Notes under the pieces: model-generated
What the model was told of the DNA's origin: nothing
What the model saw: only the letters and a program-made list of their open reading frames with translations
Databases searched by the model: none
Translations under genes and position numbers: made by a program
Part shown: piece after piece, positions 8,379-39,713 of the stretch
How positions within the stretch are numbered: position 1 is the first letter of the stretch
Layout: the number at the start of each line of letters is the position of its first letter
DNA from: an uncultured Pirellulaceae bacterium
GTDB taxonomy: Bacteria; Planctomycetota; Planctomycetia; Pirellulales; Pirellulaceae
Direction: 5' to 3'
Length of the DNA: 64,000 nt
Assembly: GCA_938083195.1 (NCBI GenBank)
Contig: CALKCK010000043.1
Location: forward strand, 1 to 64,000

Positions 8379-9965
8379 TCAGTCATCCCGGGTTGAAAAG
8401 ACCGAAGCTGGCAGGTTTTCTGAGTTAACTAAGTTCGCCCCAGCTGGATTCGCTGCCCAGGCGTAACGAACTGCTGTCGGTTTCAGCACTTTTGCGCAAC
8501 TGACGATGATCGTGTTGTTGCTGATTTTTGCGTCTGCCCAATGCCACGTTTGGTTGTCACCGGTTATTTCGAAACGTTGGAGGGGTTTTCCATCGCTTGT
8601 TTTTAATCCATTTCCGGTGTGCGCAAACTCAATGATCATCTTTCCATCGTCTACCCGAGAAGATTTGTAGAGTGGGCCACTTACGGTAACTGGTTTTTGG
8701 TAATCATTGTTTAGTGCCCAGCGGGCTAGTCGAAATCCAACGGTCTTTTTGTTTTTTGGATGAATGTCCTTGGCGTCTCCAACATCGTTAATGGTCGCCA
8801 TGCCAGTGCCGACTAGTTCAAGAGTTTTCCTTTGTTGGTCTTGTACGGTCGCCCAATCACTTTGTTGTCCAGGATCGGATGTGACTGATTTAAAGTTTGC
8901 CAATTGGACGAAGTAGAATGGGAAGTCATCCCCCCAGCGATTTCGCCAGTCCTGGATCATGAGGGTAAACATTTCTTGGTAAATTTCAGCTAAACCCGCC
9001 TTGGCATTTGCTTCGCCTTGGTACCAGATCGCTCCGCGCATGGTGTAGCCAACGAAAGGGTGGATCATGCCATTGTAAAGAACCGTCGGGTTGCGCTCGT
9101 TTTCGTAGGTTGGTTTTGTAGGTTGCGGGCGTCGAGGAATTCGAGCGCGTTCGGATGTTTCTTTGTTTTTATTTTGGGTCCGAACTTTGGCGACTCTTTT
9201 CTCCCAGGATGCCATTGCCGCGTCGTGTTTTTTCTTGGCCGCGACGGGATCAAAAGATTCAGCCGCGCGGTCTAGTTCGGCAATCATCTTTTTTCCGTGC
9301 GTATTAGAGAGCATGGCTTCTCTACTCGTATAACATTCAGATCTTTTGCCACCCCAGCAAGATTGGATAATGCCGACAGGAATGCCTGTTTCTTGATTGA
9401 TTTGTTTGGCAAAGTAATAGGCCACAGCGGAAAATTTCCCTGAGGTTTCAGGGGAGGAGAGGTTCCAGGTACCTGTGATGTTGGTCTGAGGTTGGGAGGC
9501 AGGTGTGTTTGTGGCAAGGAAAAATCGAATCGCTTGGTTTTTGGATTTTGGCAAATCTGTTTTGGCATCGAGGGAGCTTTGCAGCTTGAATGCCATGTTG
9601 GACTGCCCACTCGCAAACCAGACTTCACCTATCAGGATGTTTTGGATTTCAACTCTGTCTTTTCCATTTTCAATCACCATGTTCATTCCCTGATCGCTGG
9701 CCTTCATCGCTGGTAGCGTGACTTGCCATCTTCCGTCCCCATTGGCTTTTGTGGAAACTGCATTTCCCTTGAACGCAACATCGACTTGCGTGTTGGCGTC
9801 AGCCCAACCCCAGATGGATACAGGTTTATTGCGTTGAAGTACCATTTGGTGATTGAAGAATGATGGTAATTTCAATTCCGCCAATAGTTCGGTGCTTGGT
9901 AGGATGAACCAGATTAAACTGGCAGCGATGATGGAGAGATGGCGTGGTCGCATGAGTGGCCTCAA
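8379..9965 (-). CDS. Sialate O-acetylesterase (SASA/DUF303 family)
   Basis: Secreted or periplasmic carbohydrate esterase of 528 aa. It removes O-acetyl groups from sialic acid or other acetylated sugars. An N-terminal signal peptide (hydrophobic core about residues 10-28) is followed by the family opener HQMVLQRNKPVSIWGWA, the nucleophile block GEVWFASGQSNM (Ser about 122), QSCWGGKRSECY, the block GAIWYQGEANA and a DIHPKNK segment supplying the catalytic Asp/His. There is a lysine/arginine-rich insert near residues 235-290. It is the last gene of a minus-strand run (dprA, xthA, this gene), 30 bp after xthA. In planctomycetes this family accompanies sulfated and acetylated polysaccharide use, consistent with the sulfatase at 51216. 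Confidence 0.88.
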   Translation of the reverse strand: MRPLMRPRHLSIIAASLIWFILPSTELLAELKLPSFFNHQMVLQRNKPVSIWGWADANTQVDVAFKGNAVSTKANGDGRWQVTLPAMKASDQGMNMVIENGKDRVEIQNILIGEVWFASGQSNMAFKLQSSLDAKTDLPKSKNQAIRFFLATNTPASQPQTNITGTWNLSSPETSGKFSAVAYYFAKQINQETGIPVGIIQSCWGGKRSECYTSREAMLSNTHGKKMIAELDRAAESFDPVAAKKKHDAAMASWEKRVAKVRTQNKNKETSERARIPRRPQPTKPTYENERNPTVLYNGMIHPFVGYTMRGAIWYQGEANAKAGLAEIYQEMFTLMIQDWRNRWGDDFPFYFVQLANFKSVTSDPGQQSDWATVQDQQRKTLELVGTGMATINDVGDAKDIHPKNKKTVGFRLARWALNNDYQKPVTVSGPLYKSSRVDDGKMIIEFAHTGNGLKTSDGKPLQRFEITGDNQTWHWADAKISNNTIIVSCAKVLKPTAVRYAWAANPAGANLVNSENLPASVFSTRDD

Positions 9966-15649: not shown

Positions 15650-18238
15650 TTACTTTGACGCTTCCATGACTTCTTGAATTCTATCGAGAATTTTCAGTGC
15701 CTCAGTCGGTCCGAATAGAGTATCGATCATGATGGCTGGCTCCTCCGGATAGTTCGGCGGATAGATGACATTGACCGGAATGATAGATCGGCCTACTCGT
15801 AACAAGTCCAGGGCTATCTCAGGTCTTCGCTTGGTATCGTCCACTGAAATAAACTCAAAATTTAGTTCTTTTAATTTTGCGAGAACAGCTTCGTCCGAAA
15901 AGACACGCTTTTCGTTTACTTTACAAGTCGGTCACCAGTCCGCCGTGTAATCCACCCATATCGGTCGACCATTGTTCTTCAATGTGTATTCGACCTTCCC
16001 GGGGTTCCACTCTTGCCAACCGAGTCCAGCGACGTTGTTGGCACCAGTCGATATCAGGTTTTTAGATTCCTCGACCGCTCCGTAACACATCCAGACACCA
16101 ATAGAGGCGATGATTAGCGGCAAGAGATATCCGAAGGTTAATCGTTTTGAGAATTTCATGCTCGGTTCGCTCCACTGTCCATAGCAATAAGCAGCGAGTC
16201 CGATTACTACGAGTGCCATCACAAGCCAGCTAAGGCCGCTGACTCCGGTTTGACCGCCGAAAGCTTGCATGAAGAATGCTACGGTTGCGAAGAGAGTGAA
16301 AGCCATGGTGGCTTTGAAGGTTTCCATCCATGGCCCCGGTTTGGGCAGCTTGTTAATGAGTGATGGAAAGAATGAGAGGACTACGTAGGGAGAAGAAATC
16401 CCCAAGGCAAAAACGGTAAAGAGAAACATGGAGGGCAGTGGATCTTGGGCAAGCGTGTAGCTCATTGCCGCGCCCAAAAATGGACCTGAGCAAGGTGTCG
16501 CAATTAAGGTAGTGAGGACACCTGAAAGAAAGGATCCGAGGTAGCCTTTTTTCTGGCCCCCGCCGACGCTGGAAAGTGATGTACCGATCTCAAAAATTCC
16601 CGCCATGTTCAATCCCAAAAGGAATAGCAAGACGATGATGCCGCATACGAAATAGGGGTTGCCCATTTGGGCTCCCCAATTAATTGCCTCTCCGAACCAA
16701 AGCTTGATGAATAGAACGGTTCCCCCGAGGATCCACATGGAGACGACCAGTCCAAACGCGAAGGCAATTCCGTGCTTGCGAATTTTTGCTGGTTCGCTGC
16801 CGGCCTGCATTACAAACCCCATCACTTTTAATCCAAGGACAGGGAATACACACGGCATTAGATTAAGCAGCATCCCGCCAAAAAATGCTCCGAAGAGTGC
16901 GGTAATGAAGGTTGTTTTCCCGAGTGAACTACTGCCTCCGGAGCCGACGGGGAATTCATCGAGATCTTCAAACAAGATGACCTTTTGTTTTTCGTTAGGG
17001 TCATAAAGGCTGTTCATGATTGCGATTTGTTCGGGCGAATCGGCAAGCAAGGTGACCGCCTCGTCTTCCGCTACGTTCTCATCGTCGACTCCATCATCAA
17101 CGGGGATTGAACCCCCTGAAATTTCGTGGGGTTTGTTTGCGTTCTCGGCGGCTTCGTAGGTAGAGTCACTCCAAATAAGCGGAGCTGCGGCGGCTTTCCC
17201 AAGATTGAGCAAAGCAGAGAATGCGATCCCAGTGGGAGGATCACAATGGGTTTCGTCACAGGTTTCGAGACCAATGACTCCGCTAAATTGAAAAGGCTGA
17301 TTCTTTTTAGCATTGCGAGGAATGGTAATGAAAAATTCAAGTGTGACGGGTTCGTAATAGGCGTACATGGGAGCCCCAAACGCTTCGCCAGCCTCGGGTT
17401 CTTCCGAGAGTTTCGGCCCCACAACGCTCCAGCTGTTTGTTTGAGTCAGGCCAAGGATGGTTGACTTAATTTGTGTTTTTTCGAGCGAGTAAGCATAAAC
17501 GTGCCAGTCAATCTCGGGTGTAATTGTAAGTTCCAAGCGGGCGACGTCACCTGGTCGGAGCGGTTTGTCGGTGCCGGAGTTTCGAATGATCTGTCCACGT
17601 ATCTCCGCGTGAGCTCCACGGATTTTACGGTCCTCGATTTTCAATTTCGGCTGAATGAAATCGGGCGTAATGGTAAGTTTGTCGCTAACGCCGTTGAAAC
17701 TGCTTTCAAGGTTGTATTCGAATTGTTTGCAATTGCCATTCGTTTGACACGTTTGCCCATTGATTACCAAATTAATTGCTAATTTGTCGGGGTTGATTTC
17801 GGTTGTCATTTCAAAGGGAGCGGACCAAGACACACTGTCTTCGAATTCTTCGCAAGGATTGTCGAATCCCTCTTCATTTACGATGTGTGGCTTTCTGTCC
17901 GGGCGAAATTTTCCAATTAATTTAAAATCATCAGATTCACCCACGCTGATATTCGTGGGGATGGGCCCGTCTGTATCCTTCATAGAAAAGACATGCCAAT
18001 TTGGAATGATGTCGACAGTGACTTTTAGAATGCCCTGACGTGTACCCGTCAGTATTTGAAAGCTGGAATTTACAGACACCGGATCGCTCGACTGGATGTC
18101 GCCAAATTGATCTAGTTGATCTTGCAGGAAGAGACCCTGTTCTTGCCCTTGGCAAAGTTGGGAGTTTCCAAGGCCGCTCAGAGCGAGCGCGAAGAATGCG
18201 AAGCAGAGAATGTAGTGACGGTTCAATAGTGACTGCAT
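15650..18238 (-). CDS. DsbD-type thiol:disulfide interchange protein, candidate selenoprotein (UxxC)
   Basis: Transmembrane reductant conduit passing electrons from cytoplasmic thioredoxin to the periplasm. With the ATG at 18238 the protein is 862 aa: a signal peptide; two tandem DsbD N-terminal domains with cysteine pairs C164/C170 and C327/C332; eight membrane helices with the two conserved DsbD cysteines in NLMPCVFP (C463) and ATPCSGPF (C583); then a thioredoxin domain. In that last domain the frame reads VDYTADW, TGA, PTCKVNEKRVF, so TGA sits exactly where the first Cys of CxxC belongs. After it the frame stays open for 93 codons of normal DsbD thioredoxin-like sequence (about a 1% chance at random), ending EVMEASK. 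Selenocysteine (U769-P-T-C772) is the simplest reading. A nonsense mutation or base-call error is the alternative; a conventional caller would stop at 15932. An upstream TTG at 18262 is a second possible start. Confidence 0.85.
15887..15909 (-). promoter_or_regulatory. Candidate SECIS hairpin downstream of the in-frame TGA
   Basis: Beginning 23 nt after the TGA, the mRNA can fold as AGC / G / UGUC, loop UUUUCG, GACG / AA / GCU. This is a short two-part stem of about 7 pairs including one U-G. An alternative inner stem CGU/ACG gives a 10-nt loop starting with G (GUCUUUUCGG), closer to bacterial SECIS loops. The distance is in the range known for bacterial SECIS elements, but the hairpin is weak and judged by eye. 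Confidence 0.35.
15932..15934 (-). other. In-frame TGA, putative selenocysteine codon
   Basis: TGA at the first cysteine position of the thioredoxin CxxC motif (W-TGA-P-T-C) of the DsbD-like protein. Both TGT and TGC Cys codons differ from it by one base. TGA acts as a normal stop elsewhere in the window, for example at the anti-sigma kinase, PhyH and kinase genes, so a global recoding is excluded. Confidence 0.75.
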
Positions 18239-18262
18239 TGAAAAATGTCTTCCCGGGTTCAA

Positions 18263-18533: not shown

Positions 18534-19205
18534 TCAATTTTTCTTAGGATTCGCTTTTTTGGGAATGCCAGTTTTTTTGTCGGTCGGATCGAAAAATCCA
18601 GCGAATTTCGCTGTGGTTTTCTTGCGGGAGATTGGGAGGCAGGTCGTCTCGTTACAGACTTGCCCGTCGATCTCGATTTTGACCTGAAGTTCGTTCGCGG
18701 TGATTGTTTTATTTATTTTTATGGGAGCAAAAAATTGAACTACTCCAGAGTGCTTCTCTAGTCGCACTCCAAAATCAGGGTCGCTTTCGATGACCTTTGG
18801 GTTTCGATCCGGTGTGAATCGCTGTTTGCCGGTCAGTGAGAAGTGAGGGGAAGGAGCAACGGTTATTTTTGTTTTCGGGAATAGCTCAGGTTGAGTGAGT
18901 GAGTAGATGTAGCTCTTTTTTGGGAGCTCGAATTTAACAATTAAATACCCCTCATCCGTTCCCTTTTTTAAATGAAATCGAGATGAAAGTCGAAAAGGTT
19001 TACGGGATTCGTCGGTTGTCTTTTCTTCGCTCTGAGTAGTAGGGCTTTCCTGAGTCGTGAGGGTCACTGCGGTGTAGGGGGTGGCGACCGTTTTAAGAGT
19101 GGGTGATTCGGCGGAATCTGTTCCACTTTTAGTAGATTGGCAGTAAAGCAAGACGATCGCGGTTAACGCGAAAGCGATGGGGGATATCAATGATTGAAAC
19201 CGCAT
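18534..19205 (-). CDS. Stand-alone DsbD N-terminal-domain protein (periplasmic)
   Basis: A 223-aa exported protein with a hydrophobic N-terminal segment (about 8-22) and a Thr/Ser/Glu-rich linker (about 25-70). One immunoglobulin-like DsbD alpha domain follows (PF11412-type), recognised from its similarity to the domains in the adjacent dsbD. It shares FTPDRNPKVIESDPDFG with the RPDRKPHIVNEEGFDNP region, and it ends with a cysteine pair Q-V-C-N-E-T-T-C-L-P that matches C-D-E-T-H-C in dsbD. It has no transmembrane or thioredoxin part. It may accept electrons from the DsbD-like protein and deliver them to periplasmic targets; this is inferred. A Cys at the end of the signal region (LLYC) is not a good lipobox. 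It has a Lys-rich C-terminus. Confidence 0.7.
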   Translation of the reverse strand: MRFQSLISPIAFALTAIVLLYCQSTKSGTDSAESPTLKTVATPYTAVTLTTQESPTTQSEEKTTDESRKPFRLSSRFHLKKGTDEGYLIVKFELPKKSYIYSLTQPELFPKTKITVAPSPHFSLTGKQRFTPDRNPKVIESDPDFGVRLEKHSGVVQFFAPIKINKTITANELQVKIEIDGQVCNETTCLPISRKKTTAKFAGFFDPTDKKTGIPKKANPKKN

Positions 19206-19961: not shown

Positions 19962-20864
19962 TCAATTGTCTTGATCGAAGAGGTTGTCGCTATAGGCGAA
20001 AACTGCGACCCCGAGTTTTTCCGCCATTTGGATGGTTTTGCTTTGCTCAAGGACGATTGTTCGATCTGCTTCAATCGCAAGAACGCGCCCACCTTCGCGA
20101 GCGATGGTTTCAATGGTTCCTACCCCGATGGTTGGTACATCGAATCGCATGTCTTGATTGGGTTTGGAAACTTTGACTACTGTAAATCCACCGGCACATA
20201 GTTGACCAGCACGGGCGATGCATTGATCGGTTCCTTCGATGGCTTCGACCGCCAGGACTGCTTGATTTTTTACAACGACGGTTTGTCCAATATCTAAAGC
20301 TCCCATCGCTTTGGCCATTTGCCAGCCGAATCGAATGTCTTTCAATTGGCTGTTGTTGGGTTGATTCTTTGTCAGTGGCCCTGCTTTCACCAGTAACTCC
20401 GGAGCAAAATCAGTTGCGGGGGAAAAAGTAATTCCTTCTGATTTATACAGTTCAACAACCGTACTGAGGAGTGTATCGTCCCGCCGATCCTTCGATTTCG
20501 AAATAATGATTGGGTAGAAATGTCGCCAGAATACTAAATCGGGGAAGTGCGTTATCAATCTGGATTTTTTTTGGAACAAAAGTGTTTTGAATATTTTGCC
20601 AGCCATGGTTGCGTGAACCACACCAGCTTTGCGGAAAAAGCGGCATTGGGCTCCCATTCGTGCCATTCCGAATACGCGATAGGATGTGCAAATTTCTTCT
20701 AATACAGGGTCGGCATGGTCTTTGATTCCGGTGCAGTGAACTTCGTAGCCTTGGGCGATGAGTGTTCGAGCGATGCAGACGGGGAAGTGCCCCCAGCCTG
20801 CAACCAATCCAATTTTTTTGGTGGCGAGTTGAGGTAGATTGAGATCTTGGGTGACAGTAGCCAT
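19962..20864 (-). CDS. lpxI: UDP-2,3-diacylglucosamine pyrophosphatase LpxI
   Basis: A 300-aa DUF1009/LpxI family enzyme that hydrolyses UDP-2,3-diacylglucosamine to lipid X and UMP in lipid A synthesis; it replaces LpxH in many phyla. Recognised from KKIGLVAGWGHFPVCIAR at the N-terminus, R-R-D-D-T-L-L in the middle, TVVVKNQAVLAVEAIEGTD, GFTVVKVSKPNQDMRFDVPTIG and the closing ALEA-like segment VLAIEADRTIVLEQ. It lies 27 bp downstream of lpxD on the same strand, forming an lpxD-lpxI operon. With lpxD it indicates that this planctomycete makes a lipid A-like molecule. Confidence 0.92.
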   Translation of the reverse strand: MATVTQDLNLPQLATKKIGLVAGWGHFPVCIARTLIAQGYEVHCTGIKDHADPVLEEICTSYRVFGMARMGAQCRFFRKAGVVHATMAGKIFKTLLFQKKSRLITHFPDLVFWRHFYPIIISKSKDRRDDTLLSTVVELYKSEGITFSPATDFAPELLVKAGPLTKNQPNNSQLKDIRFGWQMAKAMGALDIGQTVVVKNQAVLAVEAIEGTDQCIARAGQLCAGGFTVVKVSKPNQDMRFDVPTIGVGTIETIAREGGRVLAIEADRTIVLEQSKTIQMAEKLGVAVFAYSDNLFDQDN

Positions 20865-20891
20865 GGGGTTGTTTTGAAAGCGAAATAGGGG

Positions 20892-21938
20892 CTAGGCAGC
20901 ACGCGATCCGTTGTCTTCAGAATCGTTTAGTTGATCAAATTGTTTGGATAACTTTTTGACCGTGCGTCGAAGTTCTGGAAGCTTGGAGGTGACCGCCTGG
21001 ATTTGCATTTCCGTTCTGGCCGGTCTTGCCGGGATCCCAAAAATTCGCTGGTTACTCTCGACATCGTGCATCAAGCCAGATTTAGCACCGATTGAAACGT
21101 GCGATCCGATGTTTAGGTGATCGGCCAATCCAACTTGGCCTCCCATGATGACATAGTCGCCTGTTGAGCAACTCCCGGCTATTCCAACTTGCGAGCAAAG
21201 CAAATTGTGTTCTCCGATTGTGCAGTTGTGACCCACCATTACCAAGTTGTCAATTTTGGTTCCCGCGCCGATAGTCGTCGAGTCGTAAGTTCCTCGATCA
21301 ATCGTCGTGTTCGCGCCAATCTCGACGTCCTCTGCAATGACGACATTTCCAATTTGTGCGGAGAGAATGTGGCGACCGGTATTCGATTGGTAGCCGAATC
21401 CGAAAGCCCCTAGGACTACACCGGCATGAATGATGGAGCGGTCGCCGATGATGGTGTTTTCATAGAGCACTGCATTGGGGAAGATCTGGACGTCCTTACC
21501 GATGTTGCAGTTTTCCATGATGGTGACGTTAGGGAAAACGACTGACCCTGAGCCAATTTGGACGTTATCCATGATGACCGCCCCAGGATGTACGCAGGCT
21601 CCTTCGTCAATGATCGCATTGGGACTGACAATTGCCTGAGCGCTGACGCCCGACTGGGTTCGCTGTACGGTTGGTTTAAAACGCTCGGCAATCTCAACAA
21701 AAGCTTGCGTGACATCTTCAACGATCAGGCATGCCTTTTCCGGAGGGTCCGCATCGAACCCAATCACCGCAGCAATCGCAGGGCTGTTGAGAAAGTCATC
21801 GTAATATTTGGGGCTGGATACAAACGTAATGTCACGCGCTGTGGCCCGAGATATCGATGCTGCCCCGAAAATTTCGAGGTCTGGGTTCTTCGTTAATCGC
21901 CCACCAATAATTTCGGTGAGATCGCCTAAAAGCATCAT
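20892..21938 (-). CDS. lpxD: UDP-3-O-acylglucosamine N-acyltransferase LpxD
   Basis: A 348-aa trimeric acyltransferase adding the second acyl chain in lipid A synthesis. The N-terminal uridine-binding domain (about 1-100) is followed by a long left-handed beta helix of hexapeptide repeats (about 105-310; e.g. IGSGSVVFPNVTIM, IGDRSIIHAGVVLG). The catalytic-histidine segment is DNLVMVGHNCTIGEH, and a C-terminal helix (about 315-345) follows. It starts at the first of two ATGs, with AGGAAAGGA upstream. It is first gene of the lpxD-lpxI operon; the 280-bp upstream region carries the terminator of the convergently placed DUF1501 gene's transcript. Confidence 0.94.
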   Translation of the reverse strand: MMLLGDLTEIIGGRLTKNPDLEIFGAASISRATARDITFVSSPKYYDDFLNSPAIAAVIGFDADPPEKACLIVEDVTQAFVEIAERFKPTVQRTQSGVSAQAIVSPNAIIDEGACVHPGAVIMDNVQIGSGSVVFPNVTIMENCNIGKDVQIFPNAVLYENTIIGDRSIIHAGVVLGAFGFGYQSNTGRHILSAQIGNVVIAEDVEIGANTTIDRGTYDSTTIGAGTKIDNLVMVGHNCTIGEHNLLCSQVGIAGSCSTGDYVIMGGQVGLADHLNIGSHVSIGAKSGLMHDVESNQRIFGIPARPARTEMQIQAVTSKLPELRRTVKKLSKQFDQLNDSEDNGSRAA

Positions 21939-39294: not shown

Positions 39295-39356
39295 TTGGGC
39301 GGAACGCATTAAAATTTTATCGGATGCTGACTTTTGTTGATTTCTTGGAGATAAGA

Positions 39357-39713
39357 ATGGAAGAACAACCGATGGCGCGTTTGATGGTAACGGAGACCGA
39401 AGTTGACGCTGGTTTTTACAAAGCCGCACTCGAGGGGAGCGGCATTACAGTTTTTGTTAATGGCATGGAGGGATCGGCATTCGGAGCGGCGTTGGACGGT
39501 CCTAGTGAGATTGAAATTATCGTCTACCGAAAAGACCTTGAGGCCAGCCAAGCGATCATTGCGGAGTTGGAGGAAGAGACCGAAGACGAAATCCCTGCTT
39601 GGAATTGTTCGTGCGGTGCGGAGGTTGACGAGGGATTTGGTGTTTGTTGGTCTTGCGGTGGTGAGTACGATGCTGGTGCTGAGTCGTCCAATAGCGATAG
39701 TACTTCAAGCTGA
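39357..39713 (+). CDS. DUF2007 + zinc-ribbon protein
   Basis: A 118-aa two-part protein. Residues about 6-78 form a DUF2007 module (small ferredoxin-like, putative signal-transducing; DAGFYKAALEGSGITVFVNG, EIIVYRKDLEASQAIIAEL). Residues about 83-102 form a four-cysteine zinc ribbon, C-S-C-G-A-E-V-D then C-W-S-C-G. The tail is Ser-rich. The start at 39357 is set by GGAGATAAG just before the ATG; an in-frame ATG 11 codons upstream is less likely. A paralogue with the same arrangement is at 44016. Function unknown; the ribbon suggests protein or nucleic-acid binding. Confidence 0.8.
   Translation: MEEQPMARLMVTETEVDAGFYKAALEGSGITVFVNGMEGSAFGAALDGPSEIEIIVYRKDLEASQAIIAELEEETEDEIPAWNCSCGAEVDEGFGVCWSCGGEYDAGAESSNSDSTSS

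Follow-up and report, generated by a model that had tools for sequence, protein, structure and literature searches.

A planctomycete DsbD/ScsB-type gene with an in-frame UGA at its active site very probably encodes a selenoprotein

A gene for a DsbD/ScsB-type electron conduit in a planctomycete genome carries a single in-frame TGA at the codon for the attacking residue of its C-terminal redox domain. We conclude with high confidence that this gene encodes a selenoprotein in which UGA-769 is read as selenocysteine (Sec): the genes for Sec insertion and a suitable hairpin were identified by sequence, from these we infer insertion itself, and the export of reducing power through the conduit would probably depend on selenium. 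Annotated with TGA as a stop, the product would seem to break off at its active site, while the gene very probably specifies a complete, selenium-dependent enzyme. In many bacteria, the oxidising periplasm is supplied with electrons by conduits of the DsbD type; were such a conduit to require selenium, protein folding, metal tolerance or the maturation of cytochromes would become linked to the selenium supply.

Reading frame, domain layout and neighbouring genes

The gene lies in a 64,000-nucleotide stretch of DNA (the window), on the minus strand. Its frame opens with an ATG at 18238 and runs for 768 codons to the TGA (codon 769), which is followed by 93 codons and a TAA; no other in-frame TGA occurs within 15653-18238. 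An earlier note on this DNA had placed one TGA between VDYTADW and PTCKVNEKRVF and had seen the frame run on with thioredoxin-domain sequence. Translation reproduced the former, with WVDYTADW ahead of the TGA, and the latter agrees with a Pfam match to Thioredoxin_7 that extends across the TGA. The features of the locus, all on the minus strand, are as follows.

15653..18238, minus: coding sequence of the putative Sec-DsbD (ScsB-like), 862 residues with UGA as Sec; TAA stop at 15650-15652
17684..18091, minus: first Ig-like domain, residues about 50-185, with Cys164/Cys170 (predicted model; 27% identity to the upstream gene product)
17204..17608, minus: second Ig-like, DsbD-alpha domain, residues about 211-345, with Cys327/Cys332 (Pfam DsbD_N; model pLDDT 70-91 per block)
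16268..16897, minus: DsbD_TM transmembrane domain, with Cys463 (MPCVFP) and Cys583 (TPCSGP), both invariant in alignments A1 (9 rows) and A2 (14 rows)
15653..16036, minus: C-terminal thioredoxin-like (gamma) domain, residues 735-862 (Pfam PF13899; solved DsbD gamma chains)
15950..15952, minus: Asp763, six residues before Sec, by position the counterpart of E. coli Asp455; invariant in A1 and A2
15932..15934, minus: UGA codon 769, first residue of the UPTC active site, aligned with the first Cys of CVAC in solved DsbD gamma domains
15923..15925, minus: Cys772, second residue of the redox pair and presumably the resolving Cys; invariant in A1 and A2
15911..15913, minus: Glu776, seven residues after Sec, by position the counterpart of E. 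coli Glu468; invariant in A1 and A2
15896..15914, minus: candidate bacterial SECIS-type hairpin CGAAAAG-CGUGU-CUUUUCG, apical loop 24 nt past the UGA
18534..19205, minus: upstream companion gene for a 223-aa DsbD-alpha-like probable lipoprotein (PF11412, E 4e-4, below the cut-off)

Pfam assigned three domains to the window protein above their cut-offs: DsbD_N (PF11412, residues 229-337, 28.2 bits against 25), DsbD_TM (PF02683, 448-657, 56.9 against 27.1) and Thioredoxin_7 (PF13899, 752-828, 52.2 against 27). The two membrane cysteines and both positions of the pair 769/772 are invariant as Cys or Sec in A1 and A2. An alignment of the gamma domain to solved DsbD gamma chains puts the TGA at the first Cys of ADWCVACK, corresponding to Cys461 of E. 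coli. Foldseek matched the predicted model to CcdA (5vkv; 25% identity, E 3e-3), and among solved structures it ranked highest the Proteus mirabilis ScsB N-terminal periplasmic domain (6c29; E 1.3e-5), although the two superpose poorly (rmsd 19 over 314 columns). Based on the Pfam domains, the fold matches and the gamma alignment, we therefore assign the protein to the DsbD/ScsB-type conduits, with an attacking residue that is encoded by TGA.

The model, which is poor for the protein as a whole (mean pLDDT 63, pTM 0.32), predicts two N-terminal beta domains (about 54-185 and 211-345), followed by a helical membrane part and the gamma domain. Both Ig-like domains contain a Cys pair, and judging from the weakly superposing fold match, this tandem arrangement may be closer to ScsB than to E. 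coli DsbD. The NCBIfam DsbD model NF001419 scored 113.3 bits, below its curated cut-off of 330. The best NCBIfam match, at 140.8 bits over the membrane and gamma regions, was TsoB (NF045694), a rhodanese/DsbD fusion-like selenoprotein. Membership of that family was rejected, as the score lies far under the cut-off of 805; Pfam finds no rhodanese domain in the window protein, and the motif listed for TsoB is UxxxxU, with two Sec residues (PMC13188914).

The product of the gene directly upstream shares 27% identity with the first of the Ig-like domains in the window DsbD and may be a partner of it. A separate alpha-like copy precedes dsbD in 12 of the 16 relatives' loci examined; it was not seen in L028, L030, L032 and L034, some of which are cut by a contig end. 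Further upstream of the dsbD pair lie LpxI and LpxD-like genes for lipid A synthesis (19962-21938, minus strand).

Evidence for a selenocysteine codon

The earlier note had proposed that the TGA is read as U-P-T-C, and the refuting conditions that it had set came out in favour of that reading, as did its suggestion that relatives be inspected for Cys or TGA at this codon. Our search covered 60 genomes including that of the window, and a TGA-bearing DsbD was found at the same column in 26 of the 59 others, in matches of 31-92% identity, some of them full-length and 85-92% identical. Fifty loci were examined: 30 came with the search itself, and 20 further stretches were picked to cover every match flagged for TGA that still had no locus; the matches outside these 50 were all flagged "none". 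Among the 47 aligned rows, the column holds TGA in 28 and TGC or TGT in 19, and no other codon. Because of how these rows were chosen, 28:19 is not a prevalence, which is instead given by the 26 of 59 relatives. The 47 rows exclude L062, which duplicates the gene of L029; L059, another TGA-bearing piece of G013; the leading half of the split L029; and L035, where the gamma region is missing. A frameshift, genuine or introduced in assembly, splits the dsbD of L029 (G021, contig C127) between two frames; the TGA motif and the hairpin are retained. A separate scan of 80 named loci gave the same dichotomy, with TGA in 14 and TGC or TGT in 66; of these, four TGA loci (L071, L072, L073 and L080) and two Cys loci (L074 and L120) repeat genes of the first set.

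Purifying selection acts on the codons that follow the TGA. Across seven near relatives (21 pairs), Ka/Ks was 0.077 over the 90 codons after the TGA and 0.040 over the 376 codons before it, and the decay beyond the stop that the earlier note had named as a sign of a nonsense mutation was not observed in this set.

A hairpin accompanies the TGA. In the TGA rows compared, its apical loop lies 23-25 nt past the TGA and contains GU. Requiring at least 5 contiguous pairs and a loop of that position and GU type, we recovered it in all 28 TGA rows and in none of the 19 Cys rows; synonymous shuffles would lead one to expect 3.5 of 28. As the hairpin is visible only across relatives, this first geometry was set post hoc, after the 28 TGA rows had been viewed; it was therefore applied unchanged to the loci of the later scan. 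There, the hairpin was present in all 10 new TGA loci, in all 4 overlapping TGA loci, and in 3 of the 66 Cys loci. Covariation was analyzed in 13 distinct sequences of the window lineage, three of them from Akkermansiaceae, out of the 18 TGA sequences that share this register; the remaining five (L019, L020, L022, L023 and L034) carry the stem letters of the window and were excluded. Standard pairs make up 94.5% of the pair cells, and both sides have changed in 5 of the 7 pairs, a result matched by 0 of 500 shuffles. Slid controls were 37-62% paired, a comparison that is somewhat biased in favour of the stem, since the stem had itself been spotted by visual inspection of such sequences. The second DsbD lineage showed no covariation when a single fixed register was applied to the stem; its subgroups use different registers.

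Published rules for bacterial SECIS elements call for a loop of 3-9 nt with a G in its first two positions, a stem of 4-16 bp, a spacing of 16-37 nt, and a model free energy of -7.5 kcal/mol or lower (PMC13188914). The window hairpin agrees with the rules on loop, stem and spacing (CGUGU, 7 bp and 24), while its apical stem alone is weak at -4.4 kcal/mol; 8 of 38 TGA genes reach -7.5 through a contiguous stem. The loose published geometry, with at least 4 bp, is also satisfied by 33 of 83 Cys genes and is too unspecific on its own. Folded alone, the 56-60 nt that follow the TGA in the window adopt a different fold, no better than shuffles (z +0.77). Likewise, a test for the longest hairpin in single sequences was not significant, with synonymous-shuffle p values of 0.09-0.58 in TGA rows; as a group, the TGA rows had longer stems.

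The genes for Sec insertion, which the earlier note had listed as something to look for, are all present in the window genome (4.8 Mb in 68 contigs, 92% complete). Matches above curated cut-offs were obtained for selA (591 bits), selB (366 bits) and selD (259 bits), and tRNA-Sec scored 67.4 bits, above its cut-off, and was also called by ARAGORN. The selD match (L069; contig C40 of the same genome, 5264-6172) lies inside an open frame of 740 residues, and SelD is therefore probably fused to another domain; fusions of NADH dehydrogenase with SelD are known (PMC2398784). Among the relatives, selB was found in 23 of 26 genomes with a TGA-DsbD and in 18 of 33 others (Fisher p 0.005, uncorrected for kinship), and 24 of the 26 contain selB or tRNA-Sec. 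Neither was found in the TGA-DsbD genomes G004 (80% complete) and G023 (71%). Taken together, the machinery, the column that holds only TGA or Cys, the hairpin and the Ka/Ks ratio strongly support a Sec reading of the TGA, on sequence grounds.

Other readings of the codon and of the protein

Mechanically, the open reading frame stops at the TGA (15932-18262), as it would in a pseudogene or after a miscalled base. The same TGA in 26 other genomes means that a read error is not its cause, and neither the wide range of identities among those matches, nor the low Ka/Ks past the TGA, nor the hairpin that accompanies it fits a nonsense mutation; we regard a mutation or sequencing error as extremely improbable. 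A changed or leaky code, in which TGA is decoded as Cys or Trp without selenium, would be in line with the Cys found at this position in all examined homologs that lack TGA. The Sec machinery is complete in the genome, however, and the hairpin occurs in TGA genes and is nearly absent from Cys genes, including those of the same-genus loci L031 and L033. In addition, TGA acts as a stop elsewhere in the window, as the earlier note had observed: it ends 15 others of the 46 tallied ORFs (out of 63, with overlapping ORFs excluded), with 0-23 open codons beyond. One of these, 39324-39713 (plus strand), has a hairpin match by chance, with 4 open codons beyond. We consider decoding as Cys or Trp highly unlikely, and pseudogene, sequencing error and altered code were all rejected. 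Across the window, 36 TGAs have at least 60 open codons before and at least 40 after them, and the hairpin was found at two, 15932-15934 (minus) and 9691 (plus). The latter, with 67 open codons before and 47 after, sits opposite the long ORF 8379-9965 (minus), and its hairpin is probably due to chance.

Two further readings concern the products and the role of the gene. Termination generally competes with Sec insertion, and the UGA falls after the entire membrane domain; at low selenium, the gene might then yield a membrane protein of 768 residues that lacks the gamma domain and has a role of its own, and at ample selenium the full Sec protein. Such a membrane domain would be without an electron acceptor, and we think a dual product of this kind unlikely. 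Somewhat better placed, though still doubtful, is a specialised enzyme that serves metal (e.g., copper) stress or supports an isomerase, as ScsB does with ScsC, rather than general DsbD work. The ScsB N-terminal domain as best fold match (with the E value and poor superposition given above) and the two Ig-like domains of the predicted model point towards this role, but a Pfam scan of the seven neighbouring proteins revealed no ScsC-like gene. We retain the reading of the gene as a full-length Sec-containing conduit of the DsbD/ScsB type.

Electron path, known relatives and exchange between Sec and Cys

In the mechanism that we propose, the ribosome would decode UGA-769 as Sec, steered by the downstream hairpin and by SelB with Sec-tRNA. 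By analogy with E. coli DsbD, electrons from cytoplasmic thioredoxin would pass to Cys463/Cys583 in the membrane, then to Sec769/Cys772 of the gamma domain, and from there through the Cys pairs in both Ig-like domains to periplasmic substrates. The separate Ig-like lipoprotein encoded just upstream could possibly receive electrons as well. The protein shares with ScsB and DsbD the order alpha-alpha-TM-gamma, the two membrane cysteines, the Cys pairs of the alpha domains and the redox pair of gamma, and differs from them in having Sec for the first gamma Cys and an extra upstream gene for an Ig-like lipoprotein. It is the only DsbD_TM-family match in the 92%-complete assembly, which suggests that export of reducing power is probably selenium-dependent, although a second conduit could be missing from the assembly.

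With the gamma domain of E. coli DsbD (2fwe, 1uc7 and 7aye), the window protein has in common the ADWC..CK context and the acidic pair Asp455/Glu468, whereas Sec would replace the attacking Cys461. The pKa of that Cys is 10.6, raised by the two acids, which guards the reduced domain from side reactions (PMC3961690). Their counterparts here by position (Asp763 and Glu776) are invariant among the 9 and 14 aligned sequences, Sec and Cys alike; the codon for Glu776 sits within the hairpin stem. As the pKa of Sec is lower than that of Cys (PMC11431864), the Sec form would either operate as a selenolate within an acidic pocket or carry a Sec of elevated pKa.

Sec-containing proteins with a related active site have been catalogued. 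A survey from 2006 lists three Sec "thiol:disulfide interchange proteins" with UxxC, one from Syntrophus and two from Geobacter (PMC1794560), and an ocean survey from 2008 (GOS) lists 22 sequences of "Trx-like 2", cd02953 (PMC2398784). Reviews give the Sec thiol:disulfide interchange protein as PF13098 and credit it to a paper from 2004 (PMC9312934, PMC13188914), and planctomycete selenoproteins were reported in 2016 (PMC4807772). The thiol:disulfide interchange entries, WP_011366075.1 among them, and Trx-like 2 share with the window protein the UxxC motif in a thioredoxin-like domain, but in the parts of the sources consulted they are listed by domain, from ocean reads or from Syntrophus and Geobacter, with no full-length membrane DsbD and no planctomycete stated. 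We take cd02953 to be the DsbD gamma family, and Sec at this site of this domain has thus most likely been observed before. The earlier note had left undecided whether a Sec-containing DsbD was already described: the UxxC domain most likely was, while no description of a full-length Sec-containing membrane DsbD or ScsB was found in the portions consulted of the selenoproteome, planctomycete and DsbD literature, a body that did not extend to the 2004 and 2025 sources or the 2016 candidate table. We class the window protein as the Sec form of an already known family; should the older catalogue entries turn out to be full-length DsbD, it would be a further example of what they describe.

Sec-DsbD was found in Planctomycetota, Verrucomicrobiota and Kiritimatiellota. 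At least 6 changes between Sec and Cys are needed on a tree of 120 regions that span the membrane and gamma domains (37 Sec, 83 Cys), compared to about 32 for shuffled labels. The tree was built with a quick method and with the trait column masked, the direction of change was not inferred, and nine duplicates or fragments (L034, L059, L062, L071-L074, L080 and L120) as well as L035, which gave no match, were excluded. Sec is present in both of the most deeply separated DsbD groups. The window protein groups with those of Verrucomicrobiota and Kiritimatiellota, apart from the group that holds most of the sampled planctomycete DsbDs, a placement that suggests transfer between phyla at some time.

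We consider it an evenly balanced proposition that PVC bacteria have repeatedly shifted the attacking residue of the conduit between Cys and Sec in two DsbD lineages, with the Sec form as sole conduit in the window organism, whose periplasmic reducing power would then depend on selenium. The retained acidic pair would, on the same proposition, reflect selection to keep a site that restrains or gates a selenolate which would ordinarily be ionised. Within one genus, relatives carry either Sec or Cys at this codon, with the hairpin tracking the residue, and thus offer a natural experiment: L031 and L033 (from G020 and G010) have Cys and no hairpin and lie inside a mostly Sec group, and their genomes keep selB and tRNA-Sec. 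The single-contig genome G025, of the same genus, carries both a Sec-DsbD (L054) and a Cys paralog (L045). Together with the measured pKa of the E. coli Cys, such pairs of relatives make the reason for a swap from Cys to Sec directly testable.
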